Source: a virus
Strand: one strand, 5' to 3'
Virus record (IMG/VR): IMGVR_UViG_3300035698_014877
Span: 1-28,132 of that record
DNA: 28,132 bases
The position numbers were made by a program, and so were the translations under genes. Positions 23,280-28,132 of the stretch are shown here, piece by piece; the stretch's first letter is position 1; each line of letters starts with the position of its first letter. Under the pieces are notes generated by a model. That model was not told the DNA's origin. It was given only the letters and a program-made list of their open reading frames with translations, and made no database searches.

Positions 23280-24215
23280 CTAATCAGTTGCTTTGACCTG
23301 CGGCGGGAACAAATTGTTAAGATCAGATGATTCGTAAACAGGTTTTCCATTTATTTGCAACGGCTCCCATTGCCCAGTTTCATCCTTGATGAAATGATTG
23401 TGCCCAATCACCTTTCCGTCTTGCTTGACGTGCTTCTCCAGGAACTTCATACCAACCGTTACCGGGGTATTTTCCCAACCCTCCCGCCATGTGTAATCCT
23501 CCTGATATGAATAACCAATAAACATGACGGTCTCTGCAACGGCATTTTGCAAGAGTGGCATCTTCTTTTCGTTGACGAGCCCCATCCGGTTTCGCATCGC
23601 CTCGATGATCGTTGGCATAAACGCTCGATTGATGCGAGGCCACGTAACATCCCATTGCGTCTCTGGAACAATCTTCGTCACGTTGGTCAAGGGACTCTTC
23701 ACCTGATCCTCCGCCTTCCACGAGGCATGTGAGTCGCTCCATGCTGCGTTAAGCCCACGAACAGGAACAGTCAAAAATTCCGCAGTTGAGTCGGCAGAGA
23801 TTTGCAGGAAGGTAGTCGGATCGTTTTCGTCCTCGTTCTGCGGACCTGTAATGTAGGAAACCGAAACCACGATGAAATCATCGTACGTTCCACTAGGAGC
23901 ACCCGGGTCCAAGTTGTACGGATCGGCAGGTAGTGCATCTCGAAGGGGTGCGAAGGCGACGGAGGTAGTGTGAAACGCGGTTGATCCAGGATACCTGCGA
24001 TTGGGAGAAACGATGAACGTCTCTTCATCCAAATTGATGCCACGCGGAAAAGACAACCCCAAAAATCCAGCCAAGTCCTTTGCTTGTATGATGTACTTCT
24101 CATCGATCTGTCCCGACTCTTCATTGAGGCTTCCCGTTGGAAACCCGTTCATTAACTTGTACGGAATACCACCGGCAGAAAGTGCCCAAAACTTCGGATT
24201 GAGATTGATGCTCAT
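23280..24215 (-). CDS. Putative tail structural protein, 311 aa
   Basis: I do not recognise the family. The product has mixed strands and loops throughout, including a PLRDALPADPYNLDPGAP loop and an ETVMFIGYSYQEDYTW strand pair, and lacks signal peptide or membrane helix. Its position between the tape measure and the collar-like gene makes a distal-tail or tail-tip role most likely. It starts with ATG 8 bases after the tape measure stop. Confidence 0.55.
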   Translation of the reverse strand: MSINLNPKFWALSAGGIPYKLMNGFPTGSLNEESGQIDEKYIIQAKDLAGFLGLSFPRGINLDEETFIVSPNRRYPGSTAFHTTSVAFAPLRDALPADPYNLDPGAPSGTYDDFIVVSVSYITGPQNEDENDPTTFLQISADSTAEFLTVPVRGLNAAWSDSHASWKAEDQVKSPLTNVTKIVPETQWDVTWPRINRAFMPTIIEAMRNRMGLVNEKKMPLLQNAVAETVMFIGYSYQEDYTWREGWENTPVTVGMKFLEKHVKQDGKVIGHNHFIKDETGQWEPLQINGKPVYESSDLNNLFPPQVKATD

Positions 24216-24223
24216 GTGATCAC

Positions 24224-26518
24224 CTATTTGTTTCCAGCCACCAAACCACCGGCGTTTTGATCCGTCAGCGACTTGAGCATATCCTCTTGAATCTTTTTCG
24301 ATGCCTCGGCAACTGCCAATTGATCCTCTTGCACCTTGTCTTTTTTGTCCCCTACCAAACCCTTGAGCAGATTTTCTTGAATTGAACGGCCCCGCTCCCG
24401 CAGCCCCTTGAAACCGATCTCTTCCAACGCAGATGCTGCTTCTGGAGGAGCCCCCGGTTCTGGTTCTGGTTCTGGTTTCTCTCCCTCTTTTTTCTTCTTC
24501 TTTATCTTTTCCAGTTTATCAGCACGACCAGCTTCCAATTTCACCTTGCTTTCAACCACACTCTTTATGGCGTCATCAATTGATGCCGTTTTCATCAACT
24601 TCTTCGTGCGATCGCTGGCTACTCCAATATCAATTACGTTCGGAAGATCACTGAGCGTTTTTTCTAAGTTTTTCAAGAGGATTGCCCCAACATCCCCTCC
24701 CGTCAAAGCAGCTTCCAGCATCTCAGGAATGCTCATAAAAGCTCTGCCCATGCCCTTGATCATGGCCCATGCAGCATCAATCATAAACCCAACATAATTA
24801 ACGAATATATCAAAGGCGTAAGACAGTGCTGCTTTAAGAATATCTGGAAGTGCTGCCCCAACCTTCTTCCAGTTTTGGGCAATCGCCAAAATCCACTCAG
24901 ACGCCTCCAATGCAAATTCAGAAACTGCTTTGATGGCAGTAGCCGCCATCTCTGAAAAAGTATCACCAATGGCAGCTATGTCGATGTTTGTTATTCCAAG
25001 CAAATTCAACAAGCCCAGCCAGCCTTGAATGACGGCACCCATCATAATGTCGAATGTTTGCTTTATGTTCTCCCAAGCCAGACTGATAAGATCGGCAGAT
25101 TCCTTCAACGCCTTGACCACCGGAACTGTTTTTCTCAGCCAGTTAATCAACGCAATAATGCTGGCCACAACCACGCCGATAGCAACGATCAAAATTCCAA
25201 ACCCCGTTGAGACGGTGGCCAGTTGAATTGCTCTTGCTGCAACCCGAGCAGCAGGTCCCAACGCTTTAATGGCAAACCGCAATCCTATAACGGCCATGGT
25301 AGCCTTGATCGTGTTGCCAATGAAACCCCCCATCTTCTTATCGACATCCCTTATCACTTCAACTGATTTGGATATGACCAAAGACAACCCCCTGAAAATA
25401 TCGATCAAAGGTTCCACAGCATTCAGCACTGGAGTCAACGCTGCGATGGCCAACTCGGACATCGCTGAAATCAGTTCCTTGAGCGTTCCGATGAACGTGT
25501 CCATCCTTGCAGCAGCAACGCGGGCAGCCCGGCCTAGATCACTTTCAAGACCCTTGGCCAGATTCTCCACAAACTTTCCTCGCTGCATCAACGACAGGAG
25601 GCCGACGATCCTACGACCGCGGGCACCAAATAGAGCAAATGCCTTCTCGGAACGGGACACAGCATCCGTAGGCATAGCATCCGCCAAGGCCCTGAACAAT
25701 CCGATGGCATCTAACGCTCCCCCTGGTCCTGTAGCAAAGTCACGAATGTTTATGCCCAATTCCTGCAGAGCCTCAGCGGCGTCCTTCGGTTGCGAAATCA
25801 ACCGCTGCAAAGCAATAGCCATTGCCGTCCCAGCCTCACCACCACGAACACCAGCTTTTGCCAAAGCGGTCAACAAAGCAGTAGTGTCTCGAAATGAAAT
25901 CCCCAAATCAGCAGCAGATGATCCCAATGCTGTAAGGGCCACCGCCAATTCTTGAGCAGTTGTCTGTGCCCTCGATTGTGCCGAAGAAAGGAAGTCTGCG
26001 ATCCTACCCGTATCACTCGCAGCCAGCTTAAACTTGACCATGTTGTCTACAACTACCTTGGCGGCATCACCCAACTCAAAACCAGCCGACGCAGCCAGAT
26101 TCAACACAGTGGGCAACGCCCCAATCGCATCTTTAGCATTCAGACCACCTAATACTAACTGATTCATAGCCTCAGCAGCCTGCACCGAAGTATATCGAGT
26201 GGTGGCCCCCAATTGTCGAACTGCTTTTTCAATCGTAAGATAAGAAGCTTCACCCTCTTTGCCCAACAATCTAGCGTTGGCACGAACACGTACCATTGCT
26301 TCCTCGAACGTCGCTGCGGCAGTCGCCGCTTTGATGAACACCATTCCTATGGCAGCAACCCCCGTAGCGATTCCCAACGAACCCATTGCACCCGACATGG
26401 CACCTGCCAAACCACGTACTGCCCGCATGGCTGGGGCCTTCGCCCTATTCAGATCACTGCGGACCTTGCTGGCATCAGCCCTCACACGTATGTATGCTTT
26501 GGCCAATTCTATACCAAT
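24224..26518 (-). CDS. Phage tail tape measure protein
   Basis: The product, about 760 residues, matches the TIGR01760 tape-measure core: AMVRVRANARLLGKEGEASY, an ATTRYTSVQAAEAMNQL helix and repeated Ala-rich helices to about residue 400. Two hydrophobic segments follow near 435-460. The tail is charged with a PEPEPEP linker. Tape length would set a tail near 115 nm at about 1.5 angstrom per residue. The TTG at 26506 is 20 bases from a GGGAGG site, whereas an in-frame ATT at 26518 is 8 bases away and gives IGIELAKAYI, so ATT may be the start. Confidence 0.9.
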   Translation of the reverse strand: MGIELAKAYIRVRADASKVRSDLNRAKAPAMRAVRGLAGAMSGAMGSLGIATGVAAIGMVFIKAATAAATFEEAMVRVRANARLLGKEGEASYLTIEKAVRQLGATTRYTSVQAAEAMNQLVLGGLNAKDAIGALPTVLNLAASAGFELGDAAKVVVDNMVKFKLAASDTGRIADFLSSAQSRAQTTAQELAVALTALGSSAADLGISFRDTTALLTALAKAGVRGGEAGTAMAIALQRLISQPKDAAEALQELGINIRDFATGPGGALDAIGLFRALADAMPTDAVSRSEKAFALFGARGRRIVGLLSLMQRGKFVENLAKGLESDLGRAARVAAARMDTFIGTLKELISAMSELAIAALTPVLNAVEPLIDIFRGLSLVISKSVEVIRDVDKKMGGFIGNTIKATMAVIGLRFAIKALGPAARVAARAIQLATVSTGFGILIVAIGVVVASIIALINWLRKTVPVVKALKESADLISLAWENIKQTFDIMMGAVIQGWLGLLNLLGITNIDIAAIGDTFSEMAATAIKAVSEFALEASEWILAIAQNWKKVGAALPDILKAALSYAFDIFVNYVGFMIDAAWAMIKGMGRAFMSIPEMLEAALTGGDVGAILLKNLEKTLSDLPNVIDIGVASDRTKKLMKTASIDDAIKSVVESKVKLEAGRADKLEKIKKKKKEGEKPEPEPEPGAPPEAASALEEIGFKGLRERGRSIQENLLKGLVGDKKDKVQEDQLAVAEASKKIQEDMLKSLTDQNAGGLVAGNK

Positions 26519-26522
26519 TTTC

Positions 26523-26930
26523 TCATCCTCCCTTCCTCCGCCGTCTCCGCTGTTTTTGTTTGGCTCTTTGTTCTTTCTTCGCTTCCACTTCCATCAATTG
26601 CCTAGCCACCGACTTGCCCCCGATCCTTCCCTGAATCTTTTCTCCGTCCTTCGCACGTCCTTGTATCGTACCATCTTCGGAGGTATTTCCTATAAGATTC
26701 AAGGGGGCCGTCTTGACCCCCTTTTTGTCACTCTTGGCTTTCAGGACCTTTCGATCAGTCAACCGCATGAACATCTGATCAAGGGTCAAGTCTCCTGGAT
26801 CACCTTGAAAACCGCGGCCCCCGTTCCATGGATCATCACAAAGCACTCGAATATGATACGGCTCCAATCCGTGAAGCAATCCATCTTTCAAGAGGTCGTC
26901 TTTGTCAGGGCCGCTGGCCTCTTTCCTCAT
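26523..26930 (-). CDS. Tail assembly chaperone C-terminal part (GT-like)
   Basis: This 135-residue frame is most likely read as the C-terminal extension of the 212-residue chaperone by a -1 shift at 26948-26954, adding WLGAAA and then this sequence (352 residues in total). An internal ATG exists, but the frame has no good independent ribosome site. The product has a LEPYHIRVLCDDPW strand-helix and a very basic C-terminus (KQKQRRRRRKGG). It sits right before the tape measure, as in lambda G/GT. Confidence 0.7.
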   Translation of the reverse strand: MRKEASGPDKDDLLKDGLLHGLEPYHIRVLCDDPWNGGRGFQGDPGDLTLDQMFMRLTDRKVLKAKSDKKGVKTAPLNLIGNTSEDGTIQGRAKDGEKIQGRIGGKSVARQLMEVEAKKEQRAKQKQRRRRRKGG

Positions 26931-26954
26931 TGCAGCGGCCCCTAACCATTTTTT
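26908..26954 (-). other. -1 programmed ribosomal frameshift signal
   Basis: The minus strand reads A AAA AAT (26948-26954) in the zero frame of the 212-residue gene. A 6-base spacer GGTTAG contains the stop, then a perfect 8-bp stem GGGCCGCT/AGCGGCCC (26934-26941 and 26908-26915) has an 18-base loop. The -1 frame is open into the 135-residue frame. Confidence 0.85.
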
Positions 26955-27580
26955 ACTTGAGGAGCCGAAACACGTTCGATCTCCTGAGCAACCTCCGCCA
27001 TGAGATTGGGCTTGTCCGAGAACGCCTCCAAGACCTGTTCTCTCGTAACGTCAGAATGTCGGAGTGTCATCCACACGAACGAGACCATCCCCTCCATGCT
27101 CCCAGTGATCCACCATGCGACGTAAGGAATCTTCACGGACTTGATCGTGTTGCCCGTGAACTCTTCATATTGCTTCACCGTGATGGTTTTTTGATCCAAG
27201 GCCGTCACGACAAACCGTTTATAGGCATCGTCATCTTTGACCGCATCAGGTCCGAACTTCTCGGCCATGAACTTCCGCAAATTCTTGGAGATGACCACCG
27301 TGCTCACATCGTAAGCCTCTTTGTGTGGCAAATCACCAACGTCCCACCGAGCAGCTTCCTCGAACTTCTCTTGCATCATCGGTTTGCGAATTGCTTCTGG
27401 CAGCAAGTCGATATTATCAGCGAACGTTTTGAGATAGCTCCGCCGATATATCTCTACGCAGTCCCGCTCCACCTCGGTCAACTCCCGGATCGTGAGGGGA
27501 CGAATCACGCATTGCTTCCCGTCGATCTCGACCGTGAGCGGAGAACCCGCCCCTACGGCTCTTGCCATTGCTTCACTCAT
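26942..27580 (-). CDS. Tail assembly chaperone (G-like)
   Basis: The 212-residue product is a G-type tail assembly chaperone by context and layout. The ATG at 27580 is chosen because GGGAGACATTCTA lies upstream. It has an N-terminal RPLTIRELTEVERDC segment (about 27-41) and is helix-rich thereafter, with a WWITGSMEGMVSFVW stretch. It precedes the tape measure and ends in the frameshift site, as expected for a G protein that is also made as a longer GT form. Confidence 0.8.
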   Translation of the reverse strand: MSEAMARAVGAGSPLTVEIDGKQCVIRPLTIRELTEVERDCVEIYRRSYLKTFADNIDLLPEAIRKPMMQEKFEEAARWDVGDLPHKEAYDVSTVVISKNLRKFMAEKFGPDAVKDDDAYKRFVVTALDQKTITVKQYEEFTGNTIKSVKIPYVAWWITGSMEGMVSFVWMTLRHSDVTREQVLEAFSDKPNLMAEVAQEIERVSAPQVKNG

Positions 27581-27587
27581 TAGAATG

Positions 27588-27695
27588 TCTCCCGTTTCTG
27601 GCCCCGTAAGTGCCCCTCTAGTCGCTTCCAATTTCTACCCTCTAGGCATACCCATCTCAAATCCAAAGCCCCGTATGCCCCCTTCTCGACGATTA
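27588..27695 (-). promoter_or_regulatory. Type A promoter module before tail chaperones
   Basis: A GGGTATGCCTAG box (TATGCC, 27645-27650) lies 27 bases before AGGGGCACTTACGGGGCC. A CGAGAAG motif lies 37 bases upstream of the box, the same offset as at 1646 and 20249. The -10 is weaker than in the sister modules. It would drive the chaperone-tape measure unit. Confidence 0.5.
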
Positions 27696-27724: not shown

Positions 27725-28132
27725 TTACGGCATGAGTCGAGGCGTAGCTCCAACTTCACCGGGATAGTAATACACTCCATCGGCTCCCCAACTCGAAGTC
27801 CACGCGATTACTTCCTCAGTGTCCGGATCGACGGTCAGGTTGAAGTCCATGCAGAGTGCTCGCGGGAAATCATAGTACAGAGCAGCACCATCCAACCAAA
27901 GGACCGCAATCGCCACGTCCCCCCGTGCGAACAAGTTGAAAGCATTGTGAGCTATGTCGGTGTCGAACTTGCCTTCTGCCGTGAACGTACCATCGATCCT
28001 ACCGGCTGCCCGGTTGGTATATCCCCCGCTGTCTGAGTCTCCCCATTCAGCGGTGCCGGCGAGCGTGGGATTCACCGACCATGATGTGATACGGGCGACA
28101 AGGGTGACGCCCACAACAAATTTTCCATTCCT
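27725..28132 (-). CDS. Tail tube-like structural protein, partial
   Basis: At least 135 residues are visible, and the frame is open to the window edge, so the N-terminus is missing. The product includes WSVNPTLAGTAEWGDSDSGG, NRAAGRIDGTFTAEGKFD and VAIAVLWLDGAALYYDFPRA. The strand-rich pattern is typical of small tail tube proteins encoded just before the G/GT chaperones. A GTG at 28114 is possible but upstream codons (RNGKFV) look coding. Tail tube is the best guess from position and composition. Confidence 0.6.
   Translation of the reverse strand, partial: RNGKFVVGVTLVARITSWSVNPTLAGTAEWGDSDSGGYTNRAAGRIDGTFTAEGKFDTDIAHNAFNLFARGDVAIAVLWLDGAALYYDFPRALCMDFNLTVDPDTEEVIAWTSSWGADGVYYYPGEVGATPRLMP

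Follow-up and report, generated by a model that had tools for sequence, protein, structure and literature searches.

A very probable -1 ribosomal frameshift signal between two tail genes of an uncultivated virus and its conservation across 26 lineages

Tail genes of the window

The window, that is the whole stretch of 28,132 nucleotides analysed here, comes from an uncultivated 28-kb IMG/VR record, and represents a virus of microbes known only from environmental DNA. It carries the following genes and candidate genes:

27725-28114, minus strand: candidate major tail protein gene, upstream of G (weak PHROG match, E 0.02; homologues in relatives)
26942-27580, minus strand: gene G, candidate tail assembly chaperone of 212 aa (position between the major tail protein and the tape measure; A4 alignment; 26 divergent lineages)
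26523-26954, minus strand: T frame (-1), C-terminal extension of the predicted G-T fusion (143 open codons from the heptamer; GKWxG at the junction and the core conserved in relatives)
24224-26506, minus strand: tape measure protein gene, immediately following T (Pfam PhageMin_Tail match, E 8e-37; PHROG match to tape measure, E 3e-56)

The order major tail protein, G, T and tape measure is maintained in the relatives examined, and homologues of the candidate major tail protein, 55-65% identical, are found upstream of G in L020, L022, L023 and L025. Translation of G from its ATG gives 212 aa; an alternative TTG at 27631, located 17 codons earlier, would give 229 aa. The AlphaFold2 model of G has a mean pLDDT of 83, and the structure predicted for T is of low confidence (pLDDT 55). 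The C-terminus of T (26523-26600, minus strand) is a Lys/Arg-rich helix (KKEQRAKQKQRRRRRKGG), and most relatives have a basic tail, L020 and L025 being the exceptions.

Some other observations concern the surroundings of these genes. GIY-YIG and NUMOD3 homing-endonuclease genes are located between T and the tape measure gene in L005 (5099-5680) and L023 (4383-5129), with Pfam matches to GIY-YIG at E 1.7e-10 in L005 and to NUMOD3 at E 3.4e-16 in L023; no homing-endonuclease gene was found between T and the tape measure gene of the window. The tape measure gene has, in its 3' end (position 24362, minus strand), an in-frame G_GGT_TTG, after which the -1 frame continues for 360 codons without a stop and reaches into the gene that follows (23280-24215). 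The frame of this gene is open for 100 codons upstream of its own ATG, and for 49 in L005. No heptamer of the G_GGT_TTG type was seen at the end of the L005 tape measure gene, and the one at 24362 is probably a chance occurrence. Between 11597 and 21601 (minus strand), inspection by eye revealed a long block of open reading frames whose products look like glycosyltransferases, methyltransferases and a sulfotransferase-like protein, which is more than a phage fragment of 28 kb usually carries.

Anatomy of the shift site

In the zero frame, the 3' end of G reads CCT CAA GTA AAA AAT GGT TAG on the minus strand. The elements of the site are:

26948-26954, minus strand: slippery heptamer A_AAA_AAT, zero frame (GTA AAA AAT), read from the sequence
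26942-26947, minus strand: spacer GGTTAG of 6 nt, containing the stop of G, read from the sequence
26942-26944, minus strand: zero-frame stop TAG of G, 3 nt after the heptamer
26908-26941, minus strand: candidate stimulatory hairpin (RNAfold and positional test; kept with different sequence in relatives)
26928-26930, minus strand: in-frame ATG of T, a possible but not conserved secondary start, within the hairpin loop (AGGGG at 26943-26939, 8 nt upstream)

A sequence-only reading of this DNA had described a zero-frame A AAA AAT, a 6-base spacer holding the stop and a perfect 8-bp GC-rich stem. The positions, the frame and the spacer proved correct, all of them on the minus strand. The perfect stem is real as well, but it is 9 bp long rather than 8, with GGGCCGCTG (26941-26933) pairing with CAGCGGCCC (26916-26908) in perfect, GC pairs around a loop of 16 nt. 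In the RNAfold model, the stem is prolonged by a GUUA/UGAC pairing over a bulged G. The 48-nt stretch that begins 5 nt past the heptamer has a fold stability exceeding that of 99.7% of the equivalent local windows. A possible pseudoknot, between AAGAGG in the loop and CCTCTT downstream (26880-26930, minus strand), was noticed by eye in the window and not in L005; for a match of 6 bp, chance is not improbable.

The 41 likely genes of the window comprise 8062 codons, with 17 in-frame heptamers of the form X_XXY_YYZ (Y = A/T), and A_AAA_AAT at 26954-26948 is the only one of these within 12 nt of a stop codon. Taken alone, this count is only mildly surprising.

From the heptamer, the -1 frame extends over 143 open codons to 26523, and the tape measure gene starts at 26506, in line with the earlier description of a frame open up to the tape measure. 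The predicted G-T fusion comprises 211 + 141 = 352 aa and is joined at ...VKN/WLGAAA, which agrees with the fusion of about 352 residues and the KNWLGAAA junction proposed before. The junction peptide is predicted to be ...APQVKNWLGAAAMR, and tryptic digestion would yield NWLGAAAMR or VSAPQVKNWLGAAAMR.

Conservation of the heptamer, the stop and the -1 frame

Two separate records, L002 and L003, encode G and T proteins 100% identical to those of the window, with the same junction DNA. The closest divergent relative, L005, is 52% identical in G and 54% in T. Its site reads TTG GGA AAT GGA TAG, with the heptamer G_GGA_AAT and the stop in the same position as in the window. The hairpin is kept in L005 with G-U changes in the 3' arm (z -4.1), and its T frame is conserved through KWxGAAA. 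A search with T added eight lineages to these, all arranged in the same way and all with G_GGA_AAT. To obtain an unbiased set, we searched by the G alignment alone, with no T frame required, and found 32 loci in IMG/VR. Of these, 29 were analysed, and removal of near-copies left 26 lineages, 25 in addition to the window. Relatives found by their tape measure (L007-L009), with 22-23% identity, were too distant and were left out.

A zero-frame X_XXA_AAT was found in all 26 lineages. The X triplet is GGG in 22 lineages and AAA in four (the window, L046, L048 and L053), without a single intermediate. Parsimony on the G tree requires a minimum of four changes for the AAA state, although support is weak at most forks, and the well-supported branches require only one. 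In 25/26 lineages the zero-frame stop lies 3 nt past the heptamer, and in L064 it lies 9 nt past it; the -1 frame is open for 125-170 codons in every lineage.

Codon choice at the site differs from that elsewhere in these genes. The glycine codon is GGA in 22/22 sites, against 28% of the other glycine codons, and the asparagine codon is AAT in 26/26, against 55% of the other asparagine codons. In the -1 frame, the T of AAT is also the first base of TGG (Trp), and selection on the fusion protein may therefore explain part of the AAT conservation; such selection would itself imply reading across the junction. Furthermore, conservation of the -1 frame as protein already begins at the heptamer (GKWxG), ahead of any start codon.

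In 22 of the 26 lineages, a hairpin starting about 5-7 nt downstream of the heptamer belongs to the top 5% of local windows by stability, although the stem sequences differ. Across all lineages, the median stability rank is a fraction of 0.005. The hairpin is only moderate in L052, L057 and L060, and no strong one is present in L064, which lies on the same contig as L025. The combined P of 1e-26 should be read as "far from chance" only, since the windows overlap and the lineages share descent. The features expected of a frameshift signal are thus found together here: a zero-frame heptamer, a structure about 5-9 nt downstream, and conservation of both the signal and the -1 frame in relatives. 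Conservation of heptamer and stem had been suggested as a check of the sequence-only reading, and it is borne out by the heptamer throughout and by a strong hairpin in most lineages.

These comparisons bear on two explanations that do not involve ribosomal slippage. The AAAAAA at the window site could let RNA polymerase slip and produce a shifted mRNA. A run of six bases is short for transcriptional slippage. Moreover, 22/26 lineages have GGGAAAT, where the longest homopolymer at the site is three, yet the arrangement of the frames is the same, and the spacing of the hairpin suits a ribosomal signal. We rejected transcriptional slippage because most relatives lack the A-run, and we regard it as extremely improbable. 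A sequencing or assembly error might likewise be suspected in an uncultivated 28-kb record, or G and T might be plain overlapping neighbours with a chance heptamer. This is contradicted by the relatives: L002 and L003 share the junction as separate records, the frame relation is identical in 25 divergent lineages, and the results for codon choice and for the hairpin lie far from chance. Error or chance overlap therefore has next to no probability.

An independent start of T

T could also be a gene in its own right, with translation starting at the ATG at 26930 and coupled to the termination of G, in which case no frameshift would be needed. The window does offer this ATG with the Shine-Dalgarno-like AGGGG at a workable spacing, neither of which was mentioned in the sequence-only reading, and it is the only one of the 26 lineages to pass the list of Shine-Dalgarno motifs used. 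The ATG is, however, found at that codon in only two lineages (the window and L060) and is replaced by ATC in L005, the nearest relative. It lies inside the hairpin loop, and conservation of the T frame extends to codons that precede it. Between the heptamer and the T core, ATG is absent from 17/26 lineages, and ATG, GTG and TTG are all absent from 5/26. Relatives lacking heptamer and stem while T keeps a ribosome site of its own, the case named earlier as speaking against a frameshift, were thus not what we found; the relatives showed the opposite. An independent start also gives no account of the conservation of the heptamer. As a replacement for the frameshift it is very unlikely, but the ATG may be used in addition to it, giving some independent T in the virus of the window.

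The best reading is consequently a -1 programmed ribosomal frameshift between G and T. We consider it very probable, because divergent lineages retain the heptamer, the stop, the -1 frame and the gene order, and most of them the hairpin as well. The anatomy of the site and its conservation in 26 lineages thus support the earlier proposal of a -1 frameshift signal linking G and GT. The slippage itself and its rate are inferred, as is the chaperone role of both products.

Comparison with known systems

In phage lambda, gpG is made in excess over gpGT, at about 30:1; the binding partner of G is the tape measure, and that of T is the major tail protein (PMC5009743). Chaperones of the lambda type would also be expected to be absent from virions. 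The window shares with lambda the order major tail protein, G, T and tape measure (PMC5009743), an X_XXA_AAN near the end of G, and a -1 shift to T resulting in a short and a long product. Other aspects differ. Lambda shifts at GGGAAAG and has its stop about 15 nt downstream, whereas the window family has A_AAA_AAT or G_GGA_AAT with the stop 3 nt downstream. Lambda has no stable hairpin at the equivalent spot, whereas the window family has a strong one, and lambda G has 140 aa compared with 212 aa in the window. The claim that all elements match lambda G/GT accordingly holds for the gene order, the type of signal and the relation of the -1 frame, but not for the heptamer, the stop distance or the hairpin, and homology was not detectable.

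The G-T frameshifts of the haloarchaeal viruses HCTV-1, -2 and -5 also use Asn-codon sites, ending in C instead of the T of the window family (PMC5009743). The signals of E. coli dnaX and of the IS3/IS911 type resemble that of the window in having a heptamer and a structure a few nt downstream (PMC4066793). They belong to other genes, and their A-site codon is mainly AAR (chiefly AAG), as opposed to AAU in the window family. In E. coli, AAR in the A site is best, and mixed purine-pyrimidine codons such as AAU slip less well (PMC4066793). The A-site codon of the window is thus of a kind that slips poorly in E. coli, whose rules may not be those of the host. A low fusion ratio would be consistent with a weak heptamer backed by a strong hairpin.

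Searches for the identity of the family gave little. The G and T of the window had no Pfam or PHROG match, and one member of the G family matched Phage_TAC_19 at E 0.063. hhalign against lambda G and T detected no similarity. No homologues were found in 50,697 named phage records with the window G, L018 G or L017 T, and GTDB genome contigs gave no match with queries A1 and A5. Foldseek with G found nothing in the PDB, and in BFVD only uncharacterised Caudovirales proteins (best E 7e-4, probability 1.00), with a low TM-score and a large rmsd, so that no function can be drawn from the fold. Tail assembly chaperones of this kind share little sequence (PMC5009743), and for that reason absent family matches do not decide homology. 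The likeness to lambda in mechanism and gene order is well supported by the anatomy of the site; as to homology, none was detected from sequence.

Proposed function and meaning for the family

By this mechanism, most ribosomes would terminate at TAG and release G of 212 aa. Some, with the codons of A_AAA_AAT occupying their P and A sites, would pause at the hairpin, shift back by one base and read on in the T frame, resulting in the 352-aa G-T fusion. On the model of lambda gpG and gpGT, the tape measure would be covered by G, and the less abundant fusion would bring in the major tail protein. Both products would then act as tail assembly chaperones.

The kind of frameshift is long known; what is new to the searched databases is the G/T protein family. 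An annotation that overlooked the shift would break the product in two and place the start of T wrongly. The frameshift signal places a database-orphan protein pair as putative tail assembly chaperones where sequence homology misses it. The 26 natural variants of one site, with their block GGG/AAA switch and divergent hairpins, also provide a comparative set for the trade-off between heptamer and stem strength.

Tentatively, and with more doubt than confidence, these genes could represent an undescribed chaperone family with a fixed Asn-codon site of a class weak in E. coli (X_XXA_AAU, a strong hairpin and a stop 3 nt later), in which GGG and AAA have replaced one another as whole triplets at X on several occasions. 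If so, strong hairpins might offset weak heptamers to hold the required G:GT ratio or, alternatively, the ribosomes or tRNAs of the hosts might obey other rules of slippage.
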